This document shows positions 4,838 through 54,128 of a DNA stretch of 64,000 nt, piece after piece (position 1 is the stretch's first letter; every line of letters starts with the position of its first letter). Location: the NCBI RefSeq assembly GCF_018448905.1, contig NZ_RCWA01000014.1:1-64000 (forward strand), in the 5' to 3' direction. Below the pieces are notes generated by a model, which worked only from the letters and a program-made list of their open reading frames with translations, had not been told where the DNA came from and did no database searches. The translations under genes and the position numbers were made by a program. Source of the DNA: Photorhabdus heterorhabditis (GTDB lineage Bacteria > Pseudomonadota > Gammaproteobacteria > Enterobacterales > Enterobacteriaceae).

Positions 4838-5194
4838 TTAGCCGAGAATTTCTTTTACTTGTTCCGGCGGGCGCCCTAGTTTGGCTTTATCACCACAAAC
4901 AACAATAGGGCGTTCAATCAGTTTAGGATTTGCCACCATTATTTTCAGCAAATCATTCTGAGTGAGTTGTTCATCGGCCAGATTTAATTCTTTGTATAAA
5001 TCTTCTTTAGTCCGCATCAACTGGCGAGCATCATTAAAACCAAGCTGTTCTAACAAAGCAGATAATTGCTCCACAGTTGGCGGTACCTCTAGATAGAGAA
5101 TAATCTGTGGGTTAATTCCCTGTTCTTCAATAAGAGCCAACGTTTCACGGCTTTTGGAGCAGCGTGGGTTGTGATAAATGGTCACCTGTTGCAT
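4838..5194 (-). CDS. yfgD: ArsC-family thioredoxin-fold reductase YfgD
   Basis: A 118-residue protein of the arsenate reductase (glutaredoxin-dependent ArsC) family. The active-site motif HNPRCSKS carries Cys12, and NPKLIERPIVV gives the conserved Arg/Pro region. Arsenate reductase activity is possible, but no arsB or arsR is nearby and the genomic position matches E. coli yfgD, whose physiological role is not settled. It starts 9 bp after bepA ends on the same strand, so the two are probably cotranscribed, as in E. coli. Confidence 0.9.
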   Translation of the reverse strand: MQQVTIYHNPRCSKSRETLALIEEQGINPQIILYLEVPPTVEQLSALLEQLGFNDARQLMRTKEDLYKELNLADEQLTQNDLLKIMVANPKLIERPIVVCGDKAKLGRPPEQVKEILG

Positions 5195-5203
5195 GAGAGT
5201 TCC

Positions 5204-6667: not shown

Positions 6668-6805
6668 AAAACAAAAATGATCTCATTTGGCCATAGTTTT
6701 TAGATAATGCGTGTATGATGAACAAGGGTACCTTAAAATTAACCAATTAGTACAATTTTTAAGAAAAATAGAAATTCCGAATACTGCTATTAAGGAGCCT
6801 GGTCA

Positions 6806-16310: not shown

Positions 16311-16916
16311 TCCCTGGAAAATAAGTTGTACTGCGTGAGGGATATTTCTAGCTTAATGATGTGCTTGTGGCGGTAGGGAATACCGATACGTTAAACGCTT
16401 GTCAGAGGCAATGTAAGACTAAAGCAATTGTATATACCCAATGGATTTCAAGATGGATCGCGACGGCAAGGGAGCGAATCCCCGGGAGCATAGATAACTA
16501 TGTCATAGATAATTCTGTGACCGGGGTGAGAGAGTACAGCCAACCAAGAGGCAACTTGAAAGATAACGGGTATATTGCCATGCGATTGCCAATGACGACA
16601 AGAATCACCTGACTTTAGCCTGGTGAGTTTCAATGTATAAAGAATGTAGGCACTTGCAATGTGGCTGAGTTGAAGGTTCATTCAGCTATACTGAAATATG
16701 AAAGGAGAGGTTGTTATGGTAAAAATTGCTGATTATCCACAAGTGAAAAGTTGTGCTTAGAATTCGTTTCGCCGGAGTCAGATAACTGTTATCACAATTA
16801 CTAAATTTAATCTGCATAACTTCATATCGGACTTTTCATATCAAAAACACCAAAGACTGGGATGATTGAGCAAAAATTGATATAAAAAAGCAAATCACCA
16901 TTATTTGAGAAATGGC
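16311..16916. other. Intergenic region with ERIC and small gene remnants
   Basis: About 600 bases separating the exporter from the hydrolase. It holds a 142-bp ERIC (16433-16574). After the ERIC, a short frame starting near 16716 (MVKIADYPQVKSCA then stop, preceded by AGGAGAGG) looks like the beginning of a decayed gene. Nothing else could be supported. Confidence 0.5.
16433..16574 (+). repeat. ERIC element, 142-bp form (copy b)
   Basis: An ERIC element with the usual ends and core but 15 bp longer than the classical form. The 15-base segment CATAGATAACTATGT at the centre is followed by a second, slightly diverged copy, CATAGATAATTCTGT. The copy at 27947 has the same extension. Confidence 0.92.
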
Positions 16917-18086
16917 ATGCTTGTTAAGAGATTAATTACCGCGTTGGATGAGGAAATAGCCGTATTAATAACTGCTTTGCTTGACGAGCAGTGGGAAGCG
17001 GTTAGGGCGTTGATGAGTGAGCCGTTGCGCATAGCGGCTGATGACGCGACATTAACCGTACTGGCAGATAGTTTGTATAACTCAGATATCGATATTATTT
17101 TCCAGCAGCAAAACGCTTGCCATTTACGGCTAAGTACCCTCAATGGAAAATTTAACCTTTATATTGGGCTTAAAGATCAGCAGATTGACGCGCTTACGCT
17201 GGCTCCATGCCCGATACCCGATGTGTATGAAAAACCAGGCATCTTCACTGAAAAAACGCTAAGGGAGTTTGGCCTTGAAGCGCTTCCTGATGGTTTGGTA
17301 TGTCTGCCATCACCTAATGTTAAAGCATTGGTATTATTGCTTGCGGGTTCTGGTCCGCATTCAATGGATTATGATATTGGCCCTAATCCACTGTTTCGTA
17401 TGTTGGCACATGAATTAAGCCAATACGGTATCGCCAGTGTGCGGTTTGACAAACGCTATTACCGTTATTGGCAGGGAAATACTGATCCAGAGTCCATCGA
17501 TCTCGATGCAGAAGTTGTTGATGATGCGTGTCATATTTTAACTGGTTTGATGGAACATGCTGAATTCCACAATGTGCCGGTATTCCTTGTTGGGCACAGT
17601 TTTGGCGGATATGTTAGCCCGTTGATTGCAAAAAATTTACGGCAAAAATCGGGTCTAGATGTTGCGGGCATTGCAATGCTGGCGACGCCCTTTCGTCATT
17701 TACTCCAGGTGATTTTATCCCAATTATCCAGTGGCAAAGAGAAAGAGACGACATCTCTTGCGAACTTGCTGGCAGTACCGGAAAGCTATCTCAAACAGCT
17801 TGAGGACTACCATGCATTTACTTGCTTAAAAAATTTGCCCTCAATACCTTTATTCTTGGCTCAAGGAGATCAGGATTTTCAAGTTCCGTATGATATTGAC
17901 TTTACAATGTGGAAAACTGCACTGCACAGCAATAAAGATGCGGAGTTCAAACTTTATACCGGGTTGAATCATATTTTATTGCCTACGACAGGATGCACCA
18001 GCGGAGAGGATTATTTGCAACCAAACCAAATCCCGGGGCAGCTGATTACTGATCTTGCCACATGGCTTATCCTTCGCTCATTATGA
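16917..18086 (+). CDS. Alpha/beta hydrolase
   Basis: About 389 residues. The C-terminal two thirds is an alpha/beta hydrolase: oxyanion-region LLLAGSGP, nucleophile elbow GHSFGG (Ser228), acid in AQGDQDFQVP and catalytic His in GLNH (His352). The N-terminal ~110 residues form a separate domain rich in Leu/Ala/Asp, similar in position to domains that precede secreted hydrolases, but no signal peptide is seen. It ends 17 bp from the convergent carrier-protein gene and could be a thioesterase, acylase or peptidase for the adjacent pathway. The start is uncertain: ATG 16917 has GAGAA upstream, and a TTG lies at 16905. Confidence 0.8.
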   Translation: MLVKRLITALDEEIAVLITALLDEQWEAVRALMSEPLRIAADDATLTVLADSLYNSDIDIIFQQQNACHLRLSTLNGKFNLYIGLKDQQIDALTLAPCPIPDVYEKPGIFTEKTLREFGLEALPDGLVCLPSPNVKALVLLLAGSGPHSMDYDIGPNPLFRMLAHELSQYGIASVRFDKRYYRYWQGNTDPESIDLDAEVVDDACHILTGLMEHAEFHNVPVFLVGHSFGGYVSPLIAKNLRQKSGLDVAGIAMLATPFRHLLQVILSQLSSGKEKETTSLANLLAVPESYLKQLEDYHAFTCLKNLPSIPLFLAQGDQDFQVPYDIDFTMWKTALHSNKDAEFKLYTGLNHILLPTTGCTSGEDYLQPNQIPGQLITDLATWLILRSL

Positions 18087-18103: not shown

Positions 18104-18331
18104 TTAGTCTTTTGCGATCAGATTGATCCAGTCATTTATTGTCGGCCACCGGACCAAATCCGCAAAGTTGACTGGATAACCAGCATATTTTAGCCGATCA
18201 ACCAGCATCAACATTTTTATCGAATCGAAACCAATATCAAAAAGATTCTCGTCTGCTGGAATGGTTTCTGCTTCTGAGTGAAGGGCTTTGATTTCCCGGA
18301 GTAAAATTTCATATAAAAGTTGATTTTTCAT
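18104..18331 (-). CDS. Free-standing acyl/peptidyl carrier protein
   Basis: A 75-residue carrier protein. The phosphopantetheine attachment Ser37 lies in FDIGFDSIKM, a good match to the usual DSL/DSI motif at the start of helix 2, and the length suits a complete four-helix carrier domain. It is the last gene of the minus-strand train, 30 bp after the permease, so it probably serves the NRPS as an acyl donor or as an acceptor for the terminal condensation domain. It is not the housekeeping AcpP. Confidence 0.85.
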   Translation of the reverse strand: MKNQLLYEILLREIKALHSEAETIPADENLFDIGFDSIKMLMLVDRLKYAGYPVNFADLVRWPTINDWINLIAKD

Positions 18332-18361
18332 CGTGCCTCCAAAGTTGTATTAAAAAATAGG

Positions 18362-19591
18362 CTACAATTCCCTGATCCCGTCGATCGGTGTGGATGCTGC
18401 TGCACGATGTGATGGATATACACCAAACACCACCGTAATGAAACATGCCGAGAGGGAAGCCAATAAAAATGAATAAAATGAGAAGCCAACGGCAATATCA
18501 AATAGCGATAAGACCTTGAAACCGATAAATGATAATAATAATCCTAATAGTGCTCCCAATAATGAAATCAAAAATGCTTCGGTAAGAAATTGATAAAAAA
18601 TATCGGAATAACTTGCTCCTACCGCAAGTCGTATACCAATTTCTCTTCTGCGCTCTCTGACACTGATCAAAATAGTATTCATCACACTAACTCCCGCAAC
18701 AAAGAGCGTTACTGATGATATTGATAGCAGGAAAAGGTTAATTTTTGTCTGAGTTTCATTCAACGTTTTCAACAATTCCGTGGTATTACGTATCTCATAG
18801 CTTTGCTGACGTTTAAACTGTGATAACCGTTCTTCAACAGCGCGCTTAACCGGTTCGACATGAGTAGCGTCCTTGGCTTTCAACACAATACCGCTGGGAG
18901 GTGTATTACCGAATAGCCTCACCAGAAAGCTATTTCTTGGTAAAAATACAGTGTTATCAACTCCCGCATCCATGCCTTCACCTTTCTGCGCCAGGATGCC
19001 GATGACTCGCATAGAGATGTCGTTAATTTTAATATTCTGTTCAAATGCGGCTTCTTTATGGGGAAATAGTCGTTCGGCTAGGGAAACCCCTAAAACGACG
19101 ACGTTTGCCAGAGTATCATCTTCTTCTGGTGTATAAAAACGCCCGTGTTCAATGACCAGATTACGGATAATCGCTATATCCGCATTAGCACCGAGCAATT
19201 GAGCATTAGTCGTGCCTTGTGGAGAAACTATCGTTCCTGAAGCGGTGGAAAAAAGGGTGCTGTGGCTAATATGCGGATTACCTGAAAGTGACGTGATATC
19301 TTTTTGGGTCAGATAATTATTATGGGAATCGAAAGCACCGTTTTCTTGTCCTTTGTATTTTACTGAGATGATGTTACTTCCCATTGAGGAAACAGCTTTG
19401 ACAATGTGATCCTTGGTTGCCATCCCGATAGCCTGCATAATCACAATTGAAGCGACTCCGATGGCAATGCATAACAAAGTTAAGAAAACTCGTGTCTTAT
19501 GTGCCGCGAGGGAGCGTGTTGCCATCCTGAGGTTAAATAGGATAACAGTAGAATAAATGTCAAGCTTTAGGGGTATTTTCATTATGCCCAT
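18362..19591 (-). CDS. MacB-like ABC transporter permease (FtsX family)
   Basis: A 409-residue protein: an N-terminal membrane helix (RVFLTLLCIAIGVASIVIM), a periplasmic domain of about 220 residues, and three C-terminal helices with the ERRREIGIRLAVGAS motif of the FtsX/MacB permease family. In MacB the ATPase is fused to this part; here it is a separate upstream gene overlapping by about 10 bases. It likely moves a periplasmic substrate to an outer-membrane channel with the HlyD-family adaptor. No TolC-type gene lies in the window. Confidence 0.88.
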   Translation of the reverse strand: MGIMKIPLKLDIYSTVILFNLRMATRSLAAHKTRVFLTLLCIAIGVASIVIMQAIGMATKDHIVKAVSSMGSNIISVKYKGQENGAFDSHNNYLTQKDITSLSGNPHISHSTLFSTASGTIVSPQGTTNAQLLGANADIAIIRNLVIEHGRFYTPEEDDTLANVVVLGVSLAERLFPHKEAAFEQNIKINDISMRVIGILAQKGEGMDAGVDNTVFLPRNSFLVRLFGNTPPSGIVLKAKDATHVEPVKRAVEERLSQFKRQQSYEIRNTTELLKTLNETQTKINLFLLSISSVTLFVAGVSVMNTILISVRERRREIGIRLAVGASYSDIFYQFLTEAFLISLLGALLGLLLSFIGFKVLSLFDIAVGFSFYSFLLASLSACFITVVFGVYPSHRAAASTPIDGIREL

Positions 19592-20253
19592 TGTGTCACC
19601 AAAGAACCGTTATCCAGGCACAACTTACGCTTTGCGTATCCAGCAACAGTTTGATCGTGTGTCACGAGAATGATGCCACATCCATTATCATGTAATTCAG
19701 TAAAAAGCTGCATCAGATTGGTCGCATTAGCGGTATCTAATGCGCCGGTAGGTTCATCGGCAATAATAAACTTCGGATTATTGATTAATGCACGGGCTAC
19801 AGCAACGCGCTGCTGTTCTCCGCCAGAAAGATGACGCGGGTATTTATCCAATAAATTATTAAGTTGGAGGCGTTCTATTAAGTAATTGAAGTACTTTCTG
19901 TCGTAATTGAAATCTCTTTTTAAGTAGTACATCGGCATTAAGATATTTTCATCAATCCGGTAATGATCGAGCAGGTTGTAGTTCTGAAAGACAAAACCAA
20001 AATATTTCCGCCGCAAAAGCGCCAATGAGTGAGTCTTTTTCTGCGTCATTTCCAGGTCATTAATAAGATATTTTCCCGTACTGGCGGTATCCAAAAGCCC
20101 GATTATATTCAATAAAGTACTTTTCCCTGAGCCAGAGCGACCAAGAATAGCAACGTAGTCATGTGGATCGATAGTTAAACAAATATCTTTCAGCACAAAA
20201 TGCTTTTTGTTCTCATTGCCGTAGATCTTGCAGATATTATTTAGGGTTATCAT
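19582..20253 (-). CDS. MacB/LolD-type ABC transporter ATPase
   Basis: A 223-residue ATPase of the MacB/LolD subfamily with Walker [11 protein letters not shown]-loop [12 protein letters not shown], signature [14 protein letters not shown], Walker [13 protein letters not shown] and the H-loop LVTHD. All motifs are intact. I start it at ATG 20253, preceded by GGTGG five bases upstream, giving [12 protein letters not shown] as in relatives. A longer in-frame reading to 20355 would overlap the adaptor gene by more than 100 bases. The chosen start overlaps the adaptor by 17 bases. Confidence 0.9.
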
Positions 20254-21391
20254 CTTTACCACCAAGATTATCTTGTTTGGAAAGTACAACGATCTGTTCA
20301 TTATTCTGCAATCCGCTGACAACAACTGAGTGTATTCCATCGTTATGACCGACAATCAATTTCCTTATTACGATATTTCCATCTTTCATCTCACGTAAAA
20401 AATAGGCGGTTAGATTATCATTTACAGGTTGATGTCGTTTGTTATTCAGTACGTCATTGGGTATGGTCACTACCGCAGTACTTTCATGTGTCACAATAGT
20501 GACATCAGCACTCATGCTAGGTTTTAGCAGGAAATTGTCATTAATCACATCAAACAGCACTGTATAATAAACTGCATTATTAATTAGGTCAGGTTTATAC
20601 ATGATCTTCTTAACATTACCGTGCCATATATGCTGATTTGCACTATAGATCTTGAAGGAAGCTTTTTGCCCGGTCACGATTTGGTTAATATCTGCCTCAG
20701 AAACTTTTGCATAAACGGTCATATTCTTGAGATCGGCAATTTGCATGAGAACAGGTGTCTGTTGATTAACATTGAGGGTTTGACCTGGATCAACATAGAT
20801 TGCAGTCACTACGCCGGCGATAGGTGCATAGATTTGGGTATAACTGAGGCTGACTTCTTCGCTATGTAAAATATGTTCATTTTGTCTGATATCTGCTTTA
20901 AGGTTTTCAATTCTTGCCAGACTTTTCTTTACGCCGAAAGTCGCCTCATCCAGTAATTGTTGGCTGGTTGCAGAGTGTAGACTAAGCTGTCTTTGGCGTT
21001 TTTCGGTAATGACCAGGAACTGGTAGGTGTATTGTTCTTCCTTCAATATGGCCCGCAATTTTTCCAATCGCGCGCGGCTTGCCTCAACTTTAGTACGATA
21101 AAAAGTATCATCAATGCTGGCAACCCGCTTACCTGCTTCGACGATATCCCCGACTTCAACGTATAACTTGATTAACTGGCCAGAGATTTGACTACCAACG
21201 TTAACCTGGCTAGTCGGTTGTATAACACCGGCTGCACCTACCGTAGAAATAACATCCCCTAACGTTCCTGTGATGATTTGCTCTGCCATCACAGCAGGTG
21301 TTTCTTTCCGGTTGAATGTGTAATAAACCACGGCGATAAAAATGATCATAACGATAGTGATAATTGCCCATTTCTTTTTTTTGATCAGCAC
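20237..21391 (-). CDS. MacA-like periplasmic adaptor (HlyD/MFP family)
   Basis: A 384-residue membrane-fusion protein. It has one N-terminal anchor helix (about residues 8-25), a biotinyl-lipoyl-like half motif around VNVGSQISGQLIKLYVEVGD, a coiled-coil hairpin (about 105-170), the second lipoyl half (IYAPIAGVVTAIYVDPGQ) and beta-barrel domains. It bridges the inner-membrane permease to a TolC-like channel. It lies 24 bp after the NRPS gene and overlaps the ATPase, so NRPS synthesis and export are probably coordinated. Confidence 0.9.
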   Translation of the reverse strand: MLIKKKKWAIITIVMIIFIAVVYYTFNRKETPAVMAEQIITGTLGDVISTVGAAGVIQPTSQVNVGSQISGQLIKLYVEVGDIVEAGKRVASIDDTFYRTKVEASRARLEKLRAILKEEQYTYQFLVITEKRQRQLSLHSATSQQLLDEATFGVKKSLARIENLKADIRQNEHILHSEEVSLSYTQIYAPIAGVVTAIYVDPGQTLNVNQQTPVLMQIADLKNMTVYAKVSEADINQIVTGQKASFKIYSANQHIWHGNVKKIMYKPDLINNAVYYTVLFDVINDNFLLKPSMSADVTIVTHESTAVVTIPNDVLNNKRHQPVNDNLTAYFLREMKDGNIVIRKLIVGHNDGIHSVVVSGLQNNEQIVVLSKQDNLGGKDDNPK

Positions 21392-21415
21392 AATCAGTAT
21401 CCGTCTTAGTATTTG

Positions 21416-24400
21416 CTATAGTTTCATGTCGCCAGGTGTCAGGTAATGCTGAGTACCCATGCAATCCAATAAATCAATCAAAAATAGTCCCATGTCGCTA
21501 ATAATATTTTCAGAGAAAATATCATCGTCGTAGAGCCATTCCAGACCCAATCCGGTTGGGGTGTTTACCAACTCGAGCGCGATATCCCCTTTAGGTTTAA
21601 GCCCCTTGACTTTTTCCTTTGTGCAACGGGTTTCACCAAGATACAAACTGGTGGAGAATCCGATTTGAGAAGAGAAATAATAAGCGATTTCTGGTAGCTG
21701 CATACCGTGGTAGTGGTAAAGATGTTGTTTCAAGTACGCCAGCGAAATATTGGAATGTGCATTCGCGTCTATCAGGAAATCACGGACATACTTGGATACG
21801 TTAATTAGCGAAGTTTCAGTGGTAGCATAGGGCAATAGCAAGGTTGTTGCAAAGCTTCCGACGCTATCAAATGGCACAGGAGGAACACGGTTGGCGCAAG
21901 GGATGCCCATTATTAGCTCGTCTTTATTGAGTAATGATTTGATGGTCATTAAAAATGCCCCAATCACGATATGTTCCAGAGTCACTGCATGTTTTTTCTG
22001 TACAGAAGACAATGTCGCAATTAATTGAGGGGACAATGTCATCGAGTAACGTCGACCACGAACCCGAAGATTAGCCTCTGGTACAGAATGATGTTGTCCG
22101 GTGATAGAAAGCACGTTGAACAGTTTTTCGGTCCAAAAATTTAATGTTTCATCTGACATATGTGGATTAATTACCGCAACTTTTGTTTCCGTAACGGCTT
22201 CTATATTCGGTATATTATCGGCATAAATTGAAGATAATTTTTGCAACACATGAGCAATTGACATTCCATCACAAAATGCATGGTGGAAATTTAACAAAAG
22301 GTAATATTCATTCTCCGCCACTTTCAGCAACTTAAAACATACCGGTGGATTTTCCTGTAATGACATTGGTTTGAAGGCCAGATCATTTAATATCTTGCGT
22401 AATGCAATCTCAATATTGATACCTGTAGTATGAGTCAGGTCGATATATTCGAAGGGTAAATCTTCTTCGGTAATAGGTAAAAAGGATAAAGAGAGTTGCC
22501 CTTCTGCCATTGTTACTTTCTGGCAGAGGGCAGGGAAACATTGCATGGTATACAGCAAAGCGCAATGTAATTTCTTTAAATCGATATTACCGACAAGATG
22601 ATAATATAACGGGATATTGTGTGCCCCTGAACGGTTAGAAATAGTGTCAATTATCCAATAATATTGGTCGTGCTGTTCTGTCAGGCAAGTGTTATTTTTA
22701 TTGGTTAAAACCGGCATTTGTCCCTGTTGAATGACGGATTGCAATAAATAACCTAATCTGGGGGACTGATAGAAATCTTCCAGCCGGATAGTACAATCAA
22801 AATGTTGTTGGATCTTATTAATTAGCAACAATGCTTTAAGTGAGGTACCGCCTGCGTCAAAGAAATCGGTATCCTCATTAACTATTTTGTCGCTGTCGCC
22901 AAAGACTTCTCGCCATAATGTAAAAAATATTTCGCGTTTTTCTCCTTCAATTTGTGACATATTATTTCTTTTACTTAAATCTGTCTCTGGAACAGATTGA
23001 TCGGATGAGCTTAATTCGACAATAAAAGGTACCTGCAATTTTGGATAACATCCGCGCAGGAAGGAGACTATTTCGTGGCGATCTATCGGGTATACATCAT
23101 GAGGTATAAATATATTAATATACTGGTACCCAGTTTCACTTTCTTTTAGCGTTAAATAAATTTCATCAATATCAAAAGCGGCTGCAAGTAATTTATGCAT
23201 TTCTTCCAGATCGACACGTTTTCCATCAATTTTTCGCTCTTTATCCAATCGACCCACGAAATTTAAATTTCCCAGGACATCGTAAAACCCACGATCCCCG
23301 GTTAAATAATAGATTTTTCCATCGTTCAACTGTAAGAATTTACATGAAGTTGATTCGTCATCGTTAATATATCCAGTACATATAGAATCGCCACGGATGC
23401 ATATTTCTCCACTGCTACCGTTGATGATTTTATCAGTTCCATATTCCCGAATGACGATAGAGGTATTTGCCAATGCTTTACCAATGATATTTCCGGGGTG
23501 AAATTCATCATCTATTTTATGGCAGCTAGCCACAACACAACATTCTGTTGGGCCATAAGAGTTAATTAGAGATATTCCACAGCCTACTTTTTCTAACCAA
23601 TGGTGGATAGCTTTATCCATTGCTAAATCACCACCGATAATTGCCATTCTGATTGAAGGCGACAATTCTTTAATGGCTGCGTGTAGGAAAAAGACAATTT
23701 GATGCCAGTAATTCGTAGGGAAATTAATTATAGTGACCGATTGAGCATGACAAAATGAAAACAGTGTATCAAGCTCAGCGATCATTTGATCGCTAGCAAT
23801 TGTCAGAGTAGCTCCCTGATAAAAACATCCGAACACTTCTTCAATATAAGCATCGAAAACCGGCGTGCTGAAATTAAGAATAACATCATCCTGTTTAATG
23901 CCATACTTATCTGTCATTGCGGCCAAATAAGCATAAAGTCCCTTGAAAGTTATCGGTACCGCTTTTGGTACGCCAGTGGTTCCTGATGTAAAAAAGATGT
24001 AGGCTTCGTCTTCTTTGGTCGCAGGGCGTTTTATGTTATGTTCCAGAGATATTCTAGCGGGCAGAATATCTATATCCTCAATAAAGAAAATATGAGTATG
24101 ATTAATGCCATCCACTTTATCATGGTAATTCTGTGTAGTTATCAAGAAAGAGATATCTAGCCCACGTAATATACTACTGATTTCTTCTCGTCCGAATGTC
24201 ATGTTGATTGGAACAAAGCATAACCCAGCAGCATGGATTGCTAATATGGATAATAAGGATTCCATTCCCCTTGGTAATAATACTGCTACCCTTTGGTTTT
24301 GCATCGGATAAGATAATAGCAGTTGGCTGAGATTTAATAGCTTACAGTAAAGCTCACGGTAATTAAGGTAATGTGCAGCGTTTATTATGGGCTGACTTCC

Positions 24401-25807
24401 ACAAATTACTGCTTTCTTATCTGGAGATGTCTCGGCTATTTTCGCTATTTTGGAAATAATGTTCTCTTTGATAGGGTGATTAATGATAATATTTTCTATA
24501 GCCCATATGCCTGATGTAATATTGTCATCTGTTTCTATCGATTTATATTTTTTCCAATATGTTTCGATAGTTTCATTGATATTTATCGTCATAGTGTTAT
24601 AGATATGTAAATATTCATCAATCAAAGCATGTGCGGTAGAAACACTATACAGGCGGCTCCCTGCATCCAATTCAACTAATGCCGGTTTTCCATCAGAGGA
24701 GAATCGGATATTAATGCCATAATTATTTACTGCTCCGGAAATCATACAGCCGCGAGTAGCGCGGTTATTTTTCATGAAACCATGTTCAAGCTCATGTAAC
24801 AGGTTAACATAGGGCGCAGAAGTTAATTGATCCGCTCGACTTATCGCACCATCGTTTAAATCATTTATATCAATACGACTATGTTTGCTATGCAGGCTGA
24901 TCTGAGATTGCATTTCTATAAGGATTTGTTTTATCGTTGCCCCTGGAGATAAAGAAACCATAAGAGGCAAAGTGTTCATAGCCGGGCGATAATAACGGTA
25001 TTCTCCTTTGCCTCGTCTATTGGAGAAAGGTAAATTGATAATACTTGTTGATGAGTGGCCCTGTTTGGTCATTTGTAAGCATAAAGCCAATATCATCATC
25101 AACTTATCATTAAAAGTGAAACTACCGTTATTGGTGGTGAGTGGTCGGCTAACTTTAATCGCTTTGGAAGGAAATAAACGTTTACGTGCATAATCTTCTA
25201 ATATGGGAAGTTGGTTAAGATAATTATCCCAATAGTTTTTGTCGTTGGTATAATATATGCTTGCCTTATATTTAACATCATTAAGGTAAGCGTGATAGGT
25301 AAAAACAGATTCTAATATTGGGGGGGATAGGGTTTCTTCATAGCAGGATAGAACATCATGAATTAATTGTCCAATTCCCCAATAATCTGTAGCAATATGA
25401 TGAGCAACGATTCCCCAAAAATAGCATCCAATATCATTAAAATAAAGATAATGTCTGATTGTAACGCCATTTTCGATGTCCAGTGGTTCAGTTGATCTCT
25501 TTTTAAAATCAGTTTTAGCTGCTTGTTCTATCATTGAATCTGACCGTTCTATCCGTATGATTTCAATCGGTGCAGATCCTCGATCTTGAAAAATGTTTTG
25601 TTCAGAAAGACGATAACGTAAAGAAAAACCATCATTAAAACTGTGAATAGTCATAATGGCCTGTTCTAGTCTTTCCAGACTAATACAGTCATTGAAACTG
25701 ATGAATTCGCCGACATTGAAGACAGATTTATCGTCAGCTACAGTATTAGCAATGGCTAAACGGAGCTGTGTATAGTTCAATGGCCAATAATTTTCACTAT
25801 ATTCCAT
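21416..25807 (-). CDS. Single-module NRPS, C-A-T-C
   Basis: A 1463-residue synthetase. Condensation domain 1 has HHIATDY (136-142), where the usual final Gly is Tyr. The adenylation domain is about 455-950: A3 FTSGTTGVPK (606-615), A4 FDAYIEE, A5 YGPTE (751-755), A7 LTGDRG and an A10-like VPETDLSK with Lys946. The carrier domain has DAGGTSL (Ser989). Condensation domain 2 carries canonical HHAFCDG (1175-1181). Aligned to GrsA, the specificity residues read D-A-E-N-I-G-S-V-V, close to remembered lysine codes. There is no thioesterase; the last C domain presumably transfers the product to an amine or another carrier. Confidence 0.92.
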   Translation of the reverse strand: MEYSENYWPLNYTQLRLAIANTVADDKSVFNVGEFISFNDCISLERLEQAIMTIHSFNDGFSLRYRLSEQNIFQDRGSAPIEIIRIERSDSMIEQAAKTDFKKRSTEPLDIENGVTIRHYLYFNDIGCYFWGIVAHHIATDYWGIGQLIHDVLSCYEETLSPPILESVFTYHAYLNDVKYKASIYYTNDKNYWDNYLNQLPILEDYARKRLFPSKAIKVSRPLTTNNGSFTFNDKLMMILALCLQMTKQGHSSTSIINLPFSNRRGKGEYRYYRPAMNTLPLMVSLSPGATIKQILIEMQSQISLHSKHSRIDINDLNDGAISRADQLTSAPYVNLLHELEHGFMKNNRATRGCMISGAVNNYGINIRFSSDGKPALVELDAGSRLYSVSTAHALIDEYLHIYNTMTININETIETYWKKYKSIETDDNITSGIWAIENIIINHPIKENIISKIAKIAETSPDKKAVICGSQPIINAAHYLNYRELYCKLLNLSQLLLSYPMQNQRVAVLLPRGMESLLSILAIHAAGLCFVPINMTFGREEISSILRGLDISFLITTQNYHDKVDGINHTHIFFIEDIDILPARISLEHNIKRPATKEDEAYIFFTSGTTGVPKAVPITFKGLYAYLAAMTDKYGIKQDDVILNFSTPVFDAYIEEVFGCFYQGATLTIASDQMIAELDTLFSFCHAQSVTIINFPTNYWHQIVFFLHAAIKELSPSIRMAIIGGDLAMDKAIHHWLEKVGCGISLINSYGPTECCVVASCHKIDDEFHPGNIIGKALANTSIVIREYGTDKIINGSSGEICIRGDSICTGYINDDESTSCKFLQLNDGKIYYLTGDRGFYDVLGNLNFVGRLDKERKIDGKRVDLEEMHKLLAAAFDIDEIYLTLKESETGYQYINIFIPHDVYPIDRHEIVSFLRGCYPKLQVPFIVELSSSDQSVPETDLSKRNNMSQIEGEKREIFFTLWREVFGDSDKIVNEDTDFFDAGGTSLKALLLINKIQQHFDCTIRLEDFYQSPRLGYLLQSVIQQGQMPVLTNKNNTCLTEQHDQYYWIIDTISNRSGAHNIPLYYHLVGNIDLKKLHCALLYTMQCFPALCQKVTMAEGQLSLSFLPITEEDLPFEYIDLTHTTGINIEIALRKILNDLAFKPMSLQENPPVCFKLLKVAENEYYLLLNFHHAFCDGMSIAHVLQKLSSIYADNIPNIEAVTETKVAVINPHMSDETLNFWTEKLFNVLSITGQHHSVPEANLRVRGRRYSMTLSPQLIATLSSVQKKHAVTLEHIVIGAFLMTIKSLLNKDELIMGIPCANRVPPVPFDSVGSFATTLLLPYATTETSLINVSKYVRDFLIDANAHSNISLAYLKQHLYHYHGMQLPEIAYYFSSQIGFSTSLYLGETRCTKEKVKGLKPKGDIALELVNTPTGLGLEWLYDDDIFSENIISDMGLFLIDLLDCMGTQHYLTPGDMKL

Positions 25808-25824
25808 TATCCTGCTACTCCACT

Positions 25825-26319
25825 CTATATTTTATTTTGCAACTCGCTCTTTATTTTTTCGAAAATAGATTCATCCATGCATAACCCAATATTGCCTTCT
25901 GCACTAAAACATATCAGGGGACGTTTGCTGGTACGCAGAATAAAATATTTGTTTCGTTTCTTTTGATAGTATCCAGATGAATAATGGATAATATGTATAC
26001 CATTACTGCGATGAAAGTCGTCCAGGGAAGTTCCTTCTTCCCGGCGCAATGAGGAAATAGTCCATTCGTGTGAATATACTCCTGACTTCATCAATAATTT
26101 CCCTTCCTTGACTACTGCCTTATTTGATAACAGTTGATAGCCCACAAATAGGGTGATGATGACAAAGAGAGTGGTTGTAATGCCTGCCACCAATTTATTG
26201 GGATTACTGCTATTGAGCCAGTATGGTACTGGCAGAAAAACCAGAGCAATAAGGACGAACATGGCGACGTTCATTAATATGACTTTGAAGTCTGGATTTA
26301 ATCCCACGATATTATTCAT
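25825..26319 (-). CDS. Small membrane protein, unknown family
   Basis: I do not recognise this 164-residue protein. Two membrane helices (about 13-33 and 44-65) are followed by a polar C-terminal domain of about 95 residues containing RREEGTSLDDFHRSNG and a Tyr-rich YSSGYYQKKRNKYF stretch. The shape resembles small PH-like membrane proteins. Its ATG overlaps the stop of the upstream twin-arginine gene (ATGA), and the NRPS starts 17 bp after it, so it belongs to the same transcript. A fragment of a second copy (first 11 codons) remains at 28089-28122. Confidence 0.75.
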   Translation of the reverse strand: MNNIVGLNPDFKVILMNVAMFVLIALVFLPVPYWLNSSNPNKLVAGITTTLFVIITLFVGYQLLSNKAVVKEGKLLMKSGVYSHEWTISSLRREEGTSLDDFHRSNGIHIIHYSSGYYQKKRNKYFILRTSKRPLICFSAEGNIGLCMDESIFEKIKSELQNKI

Positions 26320-27329
26320 GCTACTGCCATTCCTAAAGATAATTCGGTAAAAAGATGAATCACTTCTTTACGCCCTTCGCGAGTTTCCGGCAGATTAATA
26401 TAACCACACTTTTGTGCTGCAAACAGGCAAGCTGTGATTTCCCGCCGGATAGCTTCTTTCACCAGAGTGTCAACCATTTCTTGATTGTTATAGAGTCTGG
26501 CAAGATGAAGAGAAGCTGTGCCAGTTGAGAGGTCGCTATGGTCAATTTTAGGTAGATAATTTGCCATACAGACAGTAACGGCTGTTTGTACTGCCAGACT
26601 TAAATAGGCTGCTACGTTAACCGCTGCTGCTGCATTTACCGCCGCGACGACTCTGGTGCCGACAGCCACGTTAACCGCAGCAACCACATTTGCTCCGACG
26701 ACCAGGCGGGCAATCTCAATGCGGGTATCGTCTTCGCTGTTTAAGGGTTCCAGAATTTCCTTTAACCGGATAAGAGGAGGACTGTCTGTATCTTGCAGCT
26801 GATAGGATTCGATATGCTCTTTAAAATGTGCAACAAGACTGGCGTCTTGATTGAGGTGATAATTGATTCGGCTTCTCAGGCTTGAGCCTTTTTCATTTAA
26901 ACCATAGGTTTTTAGTCGGGAAAAGAGCGTTTCATAATCGTTGGTTTTTACTGAATTCATTAAATCTTTATCATAAGTGATAAACAACAGTAATTCCTCA
27001 GCGGAGCCGGGGCTAACAATATCTTTGTCTATACCGAATTCATCCAATACTTTTTCGGGTGATTCTCTATATTCTAATGCCAAAGTAGGTTGTTGTTTTA
27101 TGGTTTCCCAAAATCGGTTATAGGTGATGATCTCTTCCCAAACTTCTACCGGGAGTTTTGCGTTTGACATTGACAATCTCAGCTTGTTTTCCTCGACTTC
27201 TCCTGGGGAAAGTAATGAACGTGGCACGCCAAAGAGACGAGTGCTGTCAGTACTGGCGTTAACGGTAGGTATGACACTGCCAATGGCTGCTCCGGCGGCT
27301 ACGCCAATAAATGTACGTCTTTTCATCAT
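26316..27329 (-). CDS. Twin-arginine-signal protein with an Ala/Val/Asn repeat (putative radical SAM substrate)
   Basis: A 337-residue protein of no family I recognise. It begins KRRTFIGVAAGAAIGS, a convincing twin-arginine export signal ending near VNAS. Residues 45-205 are helical and charged. Residues 209-256 are a low-complexity hydrophobic stretch built from VVAAVN-type units (Asn at 220, 232 and 238) ending at Cys254. A C-terminal domain (257-337) has the KCGYINLPETR motif. It is the first intact gene of the train leading to the NRPS, and its degraded paralogue lies directly after a radical SAM gene. This makes it a candidate maturase substrate, though it could simply be a periplasmic partner protein. 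Confidence 0.72.
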   Translation of the reverse strand: MMKRRTFIGVAAGAAIGSVIPTVNASTDSTRLFGVPRSLLSPGEVEENKLRLSMSNAKLPVEVWEEIITYNRFWETIKQQPTLALEYRESPEKVLDEFGIDKDIVSPGSAEELLLFITYDKDLMNSVKTNDYETLFSRLKTYGLNEKGSSLRSRINYHLNQDASLVAHFKEHIESYQLQDTDSPPLIRLKEILEPLNSEDDTRIEIARLVVGANVVAAVNVAVGTRVVAAVNAAAAVNVAAYLSLAVQTAVTVCMANYLPKIDHSDLSTGTASLHLARLYNNQEMVDTLVKEAIRREITACLFAAQKCGYINLPETREGRKEVIHLFTELSLGMAVA

Positions 27330-27372
27330 TCGTTCCTTTATAAGTTAACGGAATTCTTTTTTTACTGAGTGT

Positions 27373-27499
27373 TATACCCTTCATCTTTCAAGTTGTTGCT
27401 TTGTTGGCTGCTTTCACTTACCCCAGCTACATCGTTATCTATGCTCCTAGAGATGTGTTCACTTGCCGCCGAGCTGCAATTTGAAATCTATTGGATATA
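27373..27499 (-). repeat. ERIC element, 127-bp form (copy c)
   Basis: A full-length 127-bp ERIC in minus orientation with both TATA-type ends. Its core is more diverged (CTCCTAGAGATG) than the other copies. It lies in the 5' region of the intact twin-arginine gene, where its hairpin RNA could affect expression of the operon. Confidence 0.88.
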
Positions 27500-27680
27500 T
27501 AAGACGAAATTTAACCTTTTCTTATTAAGTTCTTCATCACTGATACAATTTCATGACGTAATTATCTAGCTAAAATTTTTTACCAACGATACTCATTGTC
27601 AGTATATATTGTGATTACCGTAACAATATCTGGATATTATTCTCATGCTAGGTGAGGAAACATAGAATAATTCACCCTCC
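27500..27680 (-). pseudogene. Remnant of a second radical SAM gene
   Basis: Only the two ends of a paralogue of the 28472-29533 radical SAM gene remain. The 27600-27680 part aligns with the first ~25 codons of the intact gene (shared AATATCC...TACGGTAATCACAA...TATAC on the minus strand) and contains an early stop. The 27500-27590 part aligns with its last ~90 bases (AATTATCTA block). About 900 bp between them are missing, so no functional product is possible. Confidence 0.72.
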
Positions 27681-27689
27681 GTTCGATTA

Positions 27690-27850
27690 AAGGTTAGATG
27701 CTACTAACTATTAGCTGGATAGCTCAATTTTGCAATAGGTTAGTTGATTAAATTTATATTTTGGGTGTTTAGGCTAAATATATCTTGGCATAAAGTGTGT
27801 TTATTTGGAGCCTGCTCACAAAATAGGGGGTGGAAATATTCATAAAGGAT
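27690..27850 (-). promoter_or_regulatory. Duplicated promoter region of the radical SAM cassette
   Basis: This segment aligns over its length with 29555-29715, upstream of the intact radical SAM gene, sharing blocks such as TTTTGCAAT, GTGTTTAGGCTAA and CACAAAATAGGGGG. Conservation between two otherwise decayed copies suggests it was the promoter/operator region of the cassette. Confidence 0.55.
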
Positions 27851-27946
27851 AATAAATTATTTCCTTTCCTTGATTACCACTTCATCTAATAAAAATTTTA
27901 TAGTCGAAAAGTCCTTATTATGGCGATATTTGTTAGTAGTAATGCT

Positions 27947-28088
27947 AATACCCGTTATCTTTCAAGTTGCCTCTTTGTTGGCTGCACTCTCTCACCCCGG
28001 TCACAGAGTTCTCTATGACATAGTTATCTATGCTCCCGGGGATACGCTCCCTGGCCGTCGCGATCCACCTTGAAATCCATAGGGTAAA
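27947..28088 (-). repeat. ERIC element, 142-bp form (copy d)
   Basis: A minus-orientation ERIC of 142 bp with the same 15-bp internal duplication as copy b. It abuts the eleventh codon of a truncated copy of the small membrane-protein gene, so its insertion, or a deletion ending at it, broke that gene. Confidence 0.9.
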
Positions 28089-28122
28089 GGTTTGGATTCA
28101 ATTCTGTAATATTGTTCATGCT
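28089..28122 (-). pseudogene. Fragment of a second membrane-protein gene
   Basis: Reads MNNITELNPNL on the minus strand, matching MNNIVGLNPDF at the start of the intact 164-residue membrane protein (25825-26319). It overlaps the end of the twin-arginine pseudogene in the same way as the intact pair and is cut off by the ERIC at 28088. Confidence 0.75.
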
Positions 28123-28461
28123 GTTATCATTTTTAAAGACAATTCGGTAAAGAGGTCAATGACTTCTTTGCGTTCTGCCCGAGTCGCTGGAAGGTTAATA
28201 TAACCACATTTTTGTGCGGCAAACAGGCAAGCGGTAATTTCCCTCTGGGTGGTTTCTTTGACCAGCGTATCGACCATTTTTGGGTTGTTGTAGATTCTGG
28301 CAAGATGAATGGAGACTGCGCTGGCGGAAATTCTCTCCCGGAGAAAGTAATGAACGTGGTACTCCAAATAGACGATTACTGTTAGCCTTTGCGTTAACGG
28401 TAGGTATAACACTACCAATGGCTGCTCTGGCGGCTGCGCCAATAAATGTACGTCGTTTCAT
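28116..28461 (-). pseudogene. Degraded second copy of the twin-arginine repeat protein
   Basis: The start (KRRTFIGAAARAAIGS ... LFGVPRSLLSPGE, about 43 residues) matches the signal region of the intact 337-residue protein. The sequence then jumps, with a frame change, to the C-terminal part (SIHLARIYNN ... AAQKCGYINLP ... ELSLKM). Roughly residues 45-268 of the intact protein, including the whole Ala/Val/Asn repeat, are missing. It starts only 10 bp after the intact radical SAM gene, showing the ancestral order radical SAM then substrate. Confidence 0.85.
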
Positions 28462-28471
28462 TATTCACTCC

Positions 28472-29533
28472 TTATATTGAATCAACGGCGTTTTCTGCTG
28501 CTGATTGATATATCAGAAGATCCAATCTTTCCTTAGCATTAAATTTTTTGATTACTGGAATAATTTCCCCATGATAATTATCTAATAAATTCTGGCGTGT
28601 TCCTTCGTCCTTATGTAGGTAGGCACAGGCTTGGCAGGGATGAACGATTTTTTCCAGATTAATGTTGCTATCTTGTGGACGATATTTTTTTAGAATCTTG
28701 TACGGCCCCTCTGTCCGTAACCAGACTTTCATAAAGTCTTCTTCTTGCCCTTTGAAAAGTTGGGCTAAATCCCCTCCTTGTAACCGACCAAGTTTCATTT
28801 CCGGGATATGCTCTAATGTCAGACCACAGCAGGCGGAAATTTCACCATGTGGTGTCAGCACGATATTTTCAAAGACCTGATCACACCCTTTTGTCAGTTG
28901 TTCATCTCGGTTCGGCACGTTTTTCCGTTCTTCACTGGTATCATAGAATGGCATCCAGGTGTTTCGCTGTAAGCTAATCTTGTTTTGTGCTTTGAGACGT
29001 TTAATGATCGGATTTTGGGTAATTTGTGTTGCAATGGCGGAATCTGCGGTGTCCTGTTCCACTGTAATCAGTGTCGTAATGTTTTGCCCGGCCAACGCTT
29101 CCGCTGCTGCAACTACGTTGTCGATTGGCACCCATTCGCTGTGATCTTTCCCGGTACTGATGTTTATCTCTGTGATACCGGCATCTGTTAAATCTTGGGC
29201 GATTTTTTGCGCCTTTTCCCGATTTTTTCCCCAATAACCATTGGTCACGCAACGGGTCAATAAGCCATGTTCCGAGGCAAAACGGATAGCTTCCATGAGA
29301 TCTTTGCCTAACAGGAAACACTCTCCACCACTAAAAACGACTAACTTTAGTCCTGGGAAATTAGCTTTTGAATGTGCAATAAATTGTTTAATTTCATCCA
29401 GGCTGAGGCGTGCTTTCACTGAAGGATTACATTCAAAACAACATTCTTTGCAAGCGGCATTGCAAGTATATGTTGTGATTACCGTGGCTGTATTCGGATA
29501 TTTTTCCCAATATCCAGTAGGAAAGCATGACAT
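28472..29533 (-). CDS. Radical SAM/SPASM-like peptide maturase
   Basis: A 353-residue radical SAM enzyme. The [4Fe-4S]-SAM cysteines are Cys24, Cys28 and Cys31 in TCNAACKEC, and the SAM-binding GGE motif is at 69-71 in VFSGGECF. The C-terminal half has a SPASM/Twitch-like set of cysteines: Cys217, Cys235-Cys236 and Cys300-Cys303 (HPCQACAYL), enough for an auxiliary cluster. Such enzymes modify ribosomal peptides or activate proteins. A broken substrate gene follows after 10 bp; the intact substrate copy is 1.1 kb further on. The reaction cannot be predicted from sequence alone. Confidence 0.87.
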   Translation of the reverse strand: MSCFPTGYWEKYPNTATVITTYTCNAACKECCFECNPSVKARLSLDEIKQFIAHSKANFPGLKLVVFSGGECFLLGKDLMEAIRFASEHGLLTRCVTNGYWGKNREKAQKIAQDLTDAGITEINISTGKDHSEWVPIDNVVAAAEALAGQNITTLITVEQDTADSAIATQITQNPIIKRLKAQNKISLQRNTWMPFYDTSEERKNVPNRDEQLTKGCDQVFENIVLTPHGEISACCGLTLEHIPEMKLGRLQGGDLAQLFKGQEEDFMKVWLRTEGPYKILKKYRPQDSNINLEKIVHPCQACAYLHKDEGTRQNLLDNYHGEIIPVIKKFNAKERLDLLIYQSAAENAVDSI

Positions 29534-30385
29534 AATTTACCCCCGGTTAGATTAATGGTTAGGCGATATTCACTATTAGCAGTATGAATTCATTTTGCAA
29601 TGCATTGGTTAATTAAATTCGTATTTTGAGTGTTTAGGCTAAGTATGACGTGTTAAAAATATGCTTATTTAGAGGATGATCACAAAATAGGGGGCAGAAA
29701 TATTTATTATGGAGGATAAAGTAAGAGGGAATAATTCGTGAGCTACTGTCGCCGAATGCATTTTTATATCATTATAAGGAATATGACTATGTGTGTTGGA
29801 TTTACACTGTAACCAGCCGAATTAGCGAAGGTTTATCATGAAAAAGGTTATTAGTCTGGCAAGTCTTTAACTGGCATATTGAACACAATTTCCCTCATTA
29901 ACTGCGAATTTAATTTTCGCAGGAATAAAAAAGGTGATGCTGAAATAATATAACTTCCCAATGTGGCTGAATTTTTTATTATACTTTTTATTGCTGAAAA
30001 TGGGATTAGTGTTTTATTTAGTTATACTACAAGTAGCTGGATTATTTTGAAATTATTGATGCTATATGAATATATAAAACTCGATATTAACGATCCTGAA
30101 AGGGTAGAAATTATTTGCTCTCAGCAACTGTTGCTTTCAGGAAAAGTAGCTATAATGGCGTGTCGTCTGATTCGAGGGATACTCATATGCAGCGCTCATG
30201 TGAAAAACAGATGATGATGAAAAAAAACGGTTACCGGGCATCTTAAGTAATATAATTGTTGTTGATGGTGGTGAGGAATTGAATAGTTGATTATTTAGAA
30301 ATACTTATTAATATTGTAAGTGAAAAATTAGTTTTGTAATGTAATACAAGGAAAAATCGCCCTGGCCTAATCGAGTTTAGGTAGC
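29534..30385. other. AT-rich region upstream of the radical SAM gene
   Basis: About 850 bases without an intact gene. The first 180 bp (29555-29715) are the promoter region duplicated at 27690-27850. At 29838 a frame MKKVISLASL stops at once; a one-base shift would continue as a short hydrophobic peptide, so this may be a dead small secreted-protein gene. An 83-codon frame at 29963-30214 has no family resemblance and is not called. Confidence 0.5.
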
Positions 30386-53938: not shown

Positions 53939-53954
53939 TAAAATAGCCTCGGTT

Positions 53955-54128
53955 GGGTGTTTCCATATACATATAACTCACCCCCAACCAATGATGTGTT
54001 ATATGCCTATGGTCTTGCCAACCTTAAAGGCTACCCGTACCACGTTTTATTTTGAAACGAGTATGTTGATACGAGTTTTTCAGAGAAATTAACTAAATCA
54101 TTTTTCTGAAACAGGCTACTCCCCATGA
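53955..54128 (-). promoter_or_regulatory. yybP-ykoY manganese riboswitch upstream of mntP
   Basis: On the minus strand the leader contains GGGGAGTAGCCTGTTTC near its start, then CGTATCAACATACTCGTTT and GGCAAGACC. These match my memory of the E. coli mntP (sraF) leader closely. It ends shortly before the mntP ATG, with a stem using the GGTTGGG/CCCAACC repeats that could form the expression-platform hairpin. Mn2+ binding should raise mntP expression. Confidence 0.87.

Follow-up and report, generated by a model that had tools for sequence, protein, structure and literature searches.

The SDP toxin SdpC is processed from an exported pro-protein that carries an internal hydrophobic peptide, and the myxochelin nonribosomal peptide synthetase (NRPS) MxcG ends in a reductase. 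Closest to the enzyme considered here is the epipeptide system EPE of Bacillus subtilis (EpeX/EpeE, formerly YydF/YydG): its precursor is short and carries a leader of 32 aa (PMC8326336), the hydrogen donor of EpeE is proposed to be Cys223 (PMC5682303, PMC8326336), and EpeE-type epimerases are said not to be significantly homologous to those of proteusins (PMC8326336). On the export side, PMC5985334 describes MacB as acting on periplasmic substrates and a Sec-delivered peptide as being exported by MacAB-TolC.

The window analysed is a stretch of 64,000 nucleotides from Photorhabdus heterorhabditis, and a gene train within it combines elements that recall several of these systems. A literature search found no description of a cluster of this type. 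We lean, with some reserve, towards reading it as a Photorhabdus-wide epipeptide-type cluster for a ribosomally synthesised and modified peptide (RiPP), with an unusual precursor, EpeE-like epimerisation, periplasmic excision and expulsion by a MacAB-type pump.

Layout and conservation of the locus

Eight intact open reading frames occupy 18104..29533, all on the minus strand and in the order given by the original prediction: radical SAM enzyme, twin-arginine repeat protein, small membrane protein, C-A-T-C NRPS, adaptor, ABC ATPase, permease and carrier protein. Pfam and NCBIfam returned the identities predicted for the radical SAM enzyme, NRPS, MacA-like adaptor, ATPase, MacB-like permease and carrier, and the tight junctions expected from the repeat protein onward measured -4, 17, 24, -17, -10 and 30 bp, with the ATPase start set at an internal ATG and the GTG start of the adaptor uncertain. 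What the predicted layout of "gene copies" had not resolved lies between the radical SAM gene and the intact repeat-protein gene, where a ninth element, a broken additional copy of the latter, is followed by a 786-bp gap. This copy (28116..28461, minus strand) sits directly behind the radical SAM gene and lacks an internal part including the core; by blastn, only its nucleotides 1-128 and 131-344 could be matched, to the initial 128 and the final 214 nt of the first copy of locus L026, which is intact there and in L033, L035 and L036. The gap itself contains a relic (27594..27859, minus strand; blastn 73.8% identity over 267 bp) of the beginning of the radical SAM gene together with its upstream region (29458-29723). 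Because the relic copies that upstream region, it is a possible second promoter, and the block from repeat protein to carrier may be separately transcribed.

Across six genes compared with three or four other Photorhabdus, dN/dS ranged from 0.04 to 0.33, and all but one of 23 comparisons gave a value below 0.2, which argues that the train is more than a chance arrangement. Consensus promoters (26 vs 41.3 in shuffles) and terminators (5 vs 9.8) showed no excess, Rfam at gathering scores gave no match within the cluster, and phage records gave none at 1e-20. Separately, IMG/VR yielded two weak matches, L054 and L055.

The cluster is kept, with some losses, in 12 Photorhabdus relatives; overlapping search results referred largely to this one set of genomes, which was counted once. 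In 10 of the 12 loci the genes for precursor, membrane protein, NRPS, pump and carrier lie tightly packed. The NRPS is full length in 11, and ten of these 11 relatives have it spaced 17 bp from the membrane protein gene. P. thracensis retains NRPS and precursor and has lost most of the exporter, so the pump is dispensable there, and P. australis has lost NRPS and pump while retaining the enzyme and an intact first precursor. In 11 of 12 relatives the cluster is flanked by tmcA and its neighbour gene; in the remaining one the contig stops short of them. A mobile origin of the Photorhabdus locus was considered and set aside, given these constant flanking genes and a plasmid collection in which no precursor was found at 1e-5. 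A convergent EstD-like alpha/beta hydrolase (16905..18086, plus strand; NF041096 165 bits, below the 600 cut-off) adjoins the cluster in 10 of 12 loci and is possibly associated with it.

The radical SAM enzyme and its putative precursor

The radical SAM enzyme (28472..29533, minus strand, 353 aa) is proposed to be a peptide epimerase. TIGR04078, the YydG model, covers residues 21-317 with 93 bits and is the top NCBIfam match for all 11 enzymes scanned (the window enzyme, nine distant homologues and that of Rhizobium), although every score falls under the curated cut-off of 300 bits. A nine-sequence profile (A4) matched the YydG structure 8ai1 at E 3.9e-20 over positions 13-312, aligning the CC pair of the profile with that of the structure, and Cys 24, 28, 31, 217, 235, 236, 300 and 303 are invariant in 13 of 13 aligned homologues, three of them from Photorhabdus. 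Judged by these alignments, the window enzyme is homologous to EpeE/YydG, below the equivalog cut-off, and its CC pair keeps the equivalent of the proposed hydrogen donor Cys223 of EpeE, whose replacement is reported to give peptide breakage; which cysteine of the pair this is depends on a 25-residue tag offset and on the native length that we take the protein to have. Assignment as a classic SPASM maturase was rejected (Pfam SPASM 15 bits, below 21.5), and the best 25 of 35 NCBIfam matches included no PoyD-type epimerase model, the EpeE type appearing instead.

The exported protein (26316..27329, minus strand, 337 aa) is, on the basis of alignments, phmmer homologues and core analysis, most plausibly interpreted as a RiPP precursor of giant size. 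Its putative parts are a twin-arginine-type signal (KRRTFIG), a conserved leader (about residues 26-202), a core (about 203-262) and a conserved tail (about 263-337), the signal and borders having been set by eye. The proposed core region, codons 203-262 (26544..26723, minus strand), is V/A/N-rich, nearly charge-free and has a single cysteine. It differs between paralogues while the flanks remain similar: three paralogues share 22-24 of 60 core residues vs 137-148 of 177 leader residues, and four orthologues share 56-58 of the 60. The earlier description as "repeat-bearing" proved weak, amounting to one 18-bp unit in 1.9 copies within the gene; the real feature is a low-charge stretch of 51 aa with one charged residue, where 200 protein shuffles reached at most 34 aa. 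Alternation within the window core was not significant (p 0.25). A repeat scaffold was likewise discarded: designed ankyrin proteins made up most of the 37 PDB matches at E <=10, a single match lay below 0.001 (7e-4), and among the best of them none had any stretch that passed by itself.

Among the NCBIfam matches listed for the window protein, neither the TAT-signal model TIGR01409 nor, at E 1, the SdpC family TIGR04032 appeared, and the nitrile-hydratase-like leader model TIGR04351 scored 21 bits (E 1.8e-4) vs a cut-off of 65.

Membrane protein, NRPS and exporter

The small membrane protein (25825..26319, minus strand, 164 aa) is proposed to serve in immunity or processing on the strength of its position and its 4-bp overlap with the precursor gene. 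Its gene holds the same position as those of bacterial-PH-domain proteins at other loci, with bPH_5 over cut-off in the counterparts of L043 and L053; the window protein itself had no Pfam match and no NCBIfam match over cut-off. Homology of these membrane proteins across families was not significant by sequence, so the likeness is kept as a positional argument.

The NRPS (21416..25807, minus strand, 1463 aa) was assigned its C-A-T-C order from Pfam domains and motifs: HHxxxD occurs twice, in both C domains, together with GGTS, SGTTGVPK, FDAY, YGPTE, YLTGDR and GRLDKERKIDGKR, while the A10 pattern had no match at the expected place. Neither Pfam nor the NRPS motifs indicated a thioesterase domain. 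MxcG is the best NCBIfam match (365 bits vs a cut-off of 2300), and pocket residues taken by hand from alignments suggest that the adenylation domain probably selects a basic, lysine-like amino acid. For the first C domain, the amide synthase 1l5a (E 3.6e-7) ranked second after 8xjz among the matches, and dN/dS of the NRPS was 0.13-0.19 in four comparisons. A stand-alone peptidyl carrier protein (18104..18331, minus strand; PF00550 1.6e-9, over cut-off) ends the train.

Equally, the set expected of a MacAB pump is present, in split form and under the MacA and MacB equivalog cut-offs. It consists of a MacA-like periplasmic adaptor (20237..21391, minus strand; NF008606 MacA 220 bits, cut-off 342, with HlyD_D23 and HlyD_3 over theirs), an ABC ATPase of split MacB type (19582..20253, minus strand; ABC_tran over cut-off, TIGR03608 at 205 and MacB at 201 bits both below) and a permease with MacB_PCD and FtsX domains (18362..19591, minus strand; PF12704 3.9e-33, PF02687 2.3e-20, both over cut-off).

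Related loci outside Photorhabdus

Profile searches covered samples of 394 order-, 369 class- and 398 phylum-level genomes, so the frequencies below are not rates for whole groups. Eleven enzyme-bearing loci outside Photorhabdus were examined, with 4-20 kb visible at each. The prediction treated enzyme and exported protein as one unit, to be abandoned if their relatives regularly occurred apart; instead they look like a RiPP-type pair, since 10 of the 11 loci have a candidate precursor next to the enzyme. Five of these ten (L041, L053, Eleftheria and L039/L052) are related by sequence to the window protein, and this co-occurrence indicates that enzyme and precursor belong together. In contrast, the NRPS, predicted as a necessary partner, was seen in 0 of the 11 loci, which rejects it as a member of the core system and marks it as a Photorhabdus addition.

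In a phmmer search of 12 real sequences mixed with 1200 shuffled ones, homologues of the window precursor were found in L053 (2e-20), Eleftheria (4.9e-16) and L041 (8.6e-13). Thermus and Streptomyces candidates match each other only, and those of G913, Lactococcus and Enterococcus showed no significant homology to other precursors. Since profile A5 included the G586 and G913 proteins, its re-finding of these is circular, and the independent homology tests are those made without it. Signals, judged by eye, lack the twin arginine in L039 and L053 and are absent from the Gram-positive and G913 candidates. The low-charge stretch exceeded all 200 shuffles in 7 of 14 precursors, including that of the window and three other Photorhabdus copies, and did not do so in L052, L041, L042, Thermus, Enterococcus, Lactococcus and Streptomyces. 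Beta-helix alternation as a general property was dismissed, only 4 of 14 cores reaching p<0.05, uncorrected for 14 tests. The Thermus core, a polar, Asn-alternating stretch of mean hydropathy -0.77, has 12 N-x-N pairs vs 5.5 in shuffles (p 2e-4), the stretch having been chosen after inspection.

Neighbouring genes vary. Several distant loci also carry a PH-domain membrane protein; the RiPP C-methyltransferase TIGR03975, over cut-off, adjoins the enzyme in G913 and Rhizobium, and a PrmC-like methyltransferase adjoins some relatives. SdpI (PF13630, 1.3e-15) was found at the Thermus locus and was not among the ten window proteins scanned with Pfam; for the remaining loci, its presence was assessed, where at all, from annotation. 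The precursors of L039 (8e-4) and L052 (1e-3) weakly match toxin_SdpC, TIGR04032 reaching at most 19.3 bits vs a cut-off of 99.2, and the leader model TIGR04509 matched the L039 and Streptomyces precursors below cut-off.

Proposed pathway and alternatives

In the reading we favour, the EpeE-like enzyme would abstract C-alpha hydrogens in the cytosol from chosen core residues (at a guess Val, Ala or Asn) of a 330-340-residue pre-pro-protein, and a cysteine of the CC pair would give hydrogen back to leave D-residues. Following export through the twin-arginine-type signal, periplasmic proteases would cut off leader and tail. The hydrophobic peptide so freed, about 40-60 residues long, may target membranes, possibly folded as a D,L beta-helix. 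Protection of the producer or help with processing could fall to the small membrane protein, and removal of the peptide from the periplasm to the split MacA/MacB pump together with TolC. The NRPS and stand-alone carrier would build a unit containing lysine, which is most likely a separate, second product of the shared operon.

The original idea that the NRPS contributes to one joint product is possible, and we consider it unlikely: a lysine-type unit would be loaded and moved by the terminal C domain onto the radical-SAM-modified peptide or a carrier-bound cap, the single conjugate leaving through the MacAB pump. The tight packing of these genes in Photorhabdus, the constraint on the NRPS, its two intact C-domain motifs, the missing thioesterase domain and the amide-synthase match all suit such a hybrid; the distant loci without an NRPS and the enzyme and precursor persisting in P. 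australis argue against it. Moreover, the precursor bears a signal for export and its core is internal; we infer that the core would gain a free end only beyond the cytosol, in a different place from the NRPS. To our knowledge, no RiPP-NRPS conjugate of this kind is known. Different chemistry on the same core (a thioether, a C-C crosslink or a backbone change) appears similarly unlikely: similarity to YydG is distant and sub-cut-off, and auxiliary-cluster cysteines occur in SPASM-type maturases too, but the YydG family leads in every enzyme scanned, the hydrogen-donor CC pair is kept, and one cysteine in the window core makes thioether rings unlikely there.

More remote is the suggestion that the protein is a membrane-anchored envelope protein, modified once and left intact. 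Its hydrophobic stretch would suffice as a transmembrane segment, leader and tail are conserved as strongly as in a functional protein, and half of the candidate stretches lie within the shuffle range; against this, Photorhabdus paralogues diverge chiefly in the V/A stretch, and the Thermus counterpart is polar, with an SdpI gene near. Quite improbable, if less so than that, is a bolder extension of the epipeptide-type reading, by which an EpeE-type epimerase family across Pseudomonadota, Deinococcota, Bacillota and Actinomycetota would provide a second, independent route to D,L-beta-helical membrane peptides like polytheonamide. These would be excised from an internal part of large pro-proteins, many of them exported; some members would have SdpI-type immunity, and in Photorhabdus a dedicated NRPS would cap the peptide.

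Should the favoured epipeptide-type reading be correct, radical SAM peptide epimerases would extend from short Gram-positive epipeptides to large exported Gram-negative pro-proteins, and the hitherto separate logics of epipeptides, proteusins and the SDP toxin would become connected. It would also reveal a product, apparently uncharacterised, that insect-killing symbionts share throughout the genus and that is accessible in common laboratory strains, and a clean case for asking how an NRPS joined the operon of a ribosomal peptide.

Comparison with known systems

With EPE the locus shares a homologous radical SAM enzyme including CC pair and motif, a hydrophobic core and an expected membrane-active product; it differs in that the proposed core is embedded in an exported protein of 337 aa with a conserved tail, rather than behind a short leader, and in its split MacAB-type pump and NRPS. 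Proteusins offer the large leader, predicted epimerisation, a V/A/N-rich core that we take to resemble that of polytheonamide and, in some relatives, an adjoining radical SAM C-methyltransferase or PrmC-like methyltransferase, whereas the present locus has an EpeE-type epimerase, an internal core, an export signal and only sub-cut-off matches to NHLP-type leaders.

An exported pro-protein with an internal hydrophobic peptide, weak TIGR04032 matches in relatives and the Thermus SdpI recall SDP, although scores are well under cut-off, the window protein has no match, its cluster has no SdpI, and we know of no radical SAM enzyme requirement for SDP. The NRPS resembles MxcG in C-A-T order and, by hand reading, in its lysine-type pocket, yet scores far under the cut-off, has a second C domain in place of the reductase and is accompanied by no siderophore genes seen in the cluster. 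Finally, adaptor and permease liken the exporter to MacAB-TolC, with MacB here split into separate ATPase and permease genes.

Organisation of the cluster and its epimerase-like enzyme

The eight genes of the original prediction are present as it described them (open reading frames, Pfam/NCBIfam), and the tight junctions that it saw from the exported protein (26316..27329) onward measure -17 to 30 bp. By blastn, the radical SAM gene is followed directly by a broken additional copy of the exported-protein gene (28116..28461), and the two copies are separated by remnants of the radical SAM gene start with its upstream region; tandem duplication of the radical SAM–exported protein unit, followed by decay, would be the simplest history. 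Among 12 relatives, the first copy is intact in four (L026, L033, L035 and L036) and fragmentary in L029, and the L027 contig stops short of the site.

The top NCBIfam model for the enzyme is the YydG peptide epimerase, at 93 bits against an equivalog cut-off of 300. Searched against the PDB, a nine-homologue profile gave three sequences below 0.001, all YydG (3.9e-20 to 2.3e-19); the window enzyme, used as a single query, picked up an unrelated radical SAM lipid synthase (1e-4) as well. All 13 homologues in an alignment that includes three Photorhabdus proteins and leaves out that of Rhizobium share cysteines 24/28/31 (the radical SAM motif), 217, 235, 236, 300 and 303. The Cys235-Cys236 pair aligns with the CC pair of YydG in the profile alignment, and chain residue C248 of YydG we take to be Cys223, assuming a 25-residue tag. 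According to two reviews, Cys223 is the proposed hydrogen donor of EpeE/YydG, the epimerase of the Bacillus subtilis epipeptide EPE, and its second cluster is C-terminal (PMC5682303; PMC8326336). Three other SPASM-domain matches occur in the genome, one of which (G000:C24:63606-63803) contains an in-frame internal TAA.

The exported protein as a proposed precursor

In alignments of first 10 and later 16 copies from Photorhabdus, the exported protein shows conserved N- and C-terminal regions on either side of a middle region. The middle (residues 203-262, borders by eye) is identical to orthologues from four species at 56-58 of 60 positions, versus 22-24 of 60 for three paralogues (first copies), whose flanks remain identical at 137-148 of 177 positions in the leader and 54-55 of 75 in the tail. 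Judged from these alignments, divergence of the core with retention of the flanks is the behaviour of putative core peptides that vary within one shared precursor scaffold. Within the middle, 51 consecutive residues include only one charge, versus a maximum of 34 in 200 shuffles; this test was passed by 7 of 14 precursors (the window's, three first copies from Photorhabdus, and those of L039, L053 and Eleftheria) and failed by the other 7.

By eye, the export signal (KRRTFIG) resembles the twin-arginine type, and TIGR01409 of NCBIfam gave no report for this protein; similarity to a leader model of ribosomally made peptides (RiPPs), TIGR04351, is only suggestive, at 21 bits against a cut-off of 65. 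The tail (approximately residues 251-293; window 26448-26577) bears a faint likeness to designed ankyrin repeats in the PDB, with a best E of 7e-4 that is not significant per stretch.

Conservation within Photorhabdus

Homologues of the exported protein occur in 12 of 12 other Photorhabdus genomes versus 0 of 46 genomes of other genera, and every one of its 12 named matches is from Photorhabdus. Across these 12 loci, compared with 10 kb flanks or up to the contig end, the small membrane protein is kept in all, the radical SAM enzyme in 11 (the remaining contig, L027, stops before the gene), the full-length NRPS in 11, and the complete exporter with carrier in 10. The deletions differ: P. australis lacks the NRPS and almost the whole exporter (L036, 11272-12687), its second exported-protein copy being fragmentary, and P. 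thracensis has lost most of the exporter (L037, 15939-16509), with no carrier gene seen in the locus. Measured against four relatives, or three in the case of the membrane protein, the radical SAM enzyme and exported protein have dN/dS values of 0.04-0.06, the permease and carrier 0.08-0.15, the NRPS 0.13-0.19 and the membrane protein 0.09-0.33.

An EstD-like hydrolase (16905-18086) is convergent with the cluster in 10 of the 12 loci; on its far side lies a pair of fused ABC transporters (12943-16310), retained in P. australis despite the loss of the NRPS and nearly the entire pump. Elsewhere in the window, Rfam places a manganese (yybP-ykoY) riboswitch at 53945-54135 on the minus strand (49.4 bits).

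Relatives outside the genus

Enzyme-seeded searches found, own genome aside, G273 among 394 genomes of the order, G586 among 369 of the class, G586 and G913 among 398 of the phylum, and G1138 besides G273 among 43 of the latter's genus. IMG/VR contributed one strong locus, L053, along with two weak matches; homologues also lie on plasmids of Eleftheria terrae, Enterococcus mundtii, Thermus aquaticus, Lactococcus lactis and Streptomyces canus, and a plasmid-borne Rhizobium locus was found with the Thermus enzyme as query. With the two weak matches left out, 11 non-Photorhabdus loci were counted, and a candidate precursor adjoins the enzyme in 10, none being recognised at the Rhizobium locus; the predicted association of radical SAM enzyme and exported protein appears to extend beyond the genus.

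By phmmer (12 real and 1200 shuffled sequences, best shuffle matches 0.017-0.095), the precursors of Photorhabdus, L041, L053 and Eleftheria match mutually at 2e-8 or better, L041 and L053 link those of L039 and L052 to this group, Thermus pairs with Streptomyces (3.6e-4), and the candidates of G913, Lactococcus and Enterococcus match none of the others. The match of L041 to the Photorhabdus precursor profile spans residues 2-202, the leader, with the core not covered. The arrangement enzyme–precursor–membrane protein is shared by G586, L053 and Eleftheria, and precursor–enzyme–membrane protein is found in G273 and G1138. Of the membrane proteins scanned from four of these loci, two exceed the bPH_5 cut-off (G586, as L043, and L053) and those of Eleftheria and G273 score below their Pfam cut-offs; the window's has no Pfam match. 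The L053 cassette (4965-7556), on a contig classed as viral (IMGVR_UViG_2919543075_000003) and with genes of phage-like appearance (by eye) nearby, is possibly carried by a prophage.

Toxin-like partners and core alternation

On the 14-kb Thermus aquaticus plasmid pTA14 (L058, 2599-6074), a candidate precursor, the enzyme, a protein of the family of the SDP immunity protein SdpI (PF13630, 1.3e-15) and a PrmC-like methyltransferase that scores under the family cut-offs stand in a row, in what looks like a polytheonamide-style pathway. In the core of this precursor Asn alternates with other residues (12 N-x-N pairs against an expectation of 5.5; p 2e-4 for a stretch chosen post hoc). A RiPP radical SAM C-methyltransferase (TIGR03975, cut-off 282) accompanies the EpeE-like enzyme in G913 (L044, 8405-12506; 512 bits) and Rhizobium (L061, 43-5165; 370 bits); the latter locus also bears a PrmC-like methyltransferase and an EstD-like hydrolase similar to the window's (tblastn 3.7e-11). 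The SdpC toxin model reached L039 (8e-4), L052 (1e-3), L053 (0.027), Eleftheria (0.19) and Streptomyces (0.2), all below cut-off, and matched neither the window nor the L041 precursor. The SdpI-family and methyltransferase partners of the relatives, with the sub-cut-off SdpC-model matches of their precursors, speak for a toxin-like RiPP.

Bulky and small residues alternate at p<0.05, uncorrected, in 4 of 14 cores (Thermus, L053, Eleftheria and L041) and not significantly in the other 10, the window's included (p 0.25), so a beta-helix is a hypothesis for the family and not a finding for the window. Annotated serine hydrolases lie close to the enzyme in Eleftheria (L056, 6263-7573; with a Beta-lactamase2 domain) and Thermus (L058, 6248-7270; by annotation), either as release proteases or by coincidence.

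The NRPS block, export and known systems

The NRPS is C-A-T-C with intact core motifs and an atypical A10 region. Its adenylation pocket, read by hand from alignments as D-A-E-I-I-G-S-V-V, is closest to what we take to be the lysine code of bacitracin BacB, and its top NCBIfam match, MxcG, points to lysine likewise. No NRPS homologue was found at 1e-150 in 294 other order-sample genomes (best two candidates per listed genome scored) or at 1e-4 in the 11 distant loci (4-20 kb each); because of this, the NRPS–pump–carrier block looks like a Photorhabdus addition behind an older module, and the single-system idea of the original prediction is not supported as far as the NRPS is concerned. Terminal C domains releasing onto an amine are known in Photorhabdus, so a small separate NRPS product would need no new chemistry.

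In the proposed route, the precursor would be epimerised in the cytosol, exported and trimmed, and the peptide would then be pumped out; Pfam/NCBIfam revealed no recognisable maturation protease in the cluster. In a literature search that covered few subscription papers, titles and abstract openings describe neither this cluster nor EpeE-type enzymes with exported pro-proteins, and passages of two surveys name no such cluster (PMC9177418; PMC10676414). We rate the Photorhabdus cluster as an apparently undescribed variant of the epipeptide-type RiPPs. According to one study, MacB substrates are already periplasmic, and a Sec-delivered peptide toxin is exported by MacAB-TolC (PMC5985334); by analogy, an exported precursor combined with a MacAB-type pump would fit this pattern with the NRPS not required.
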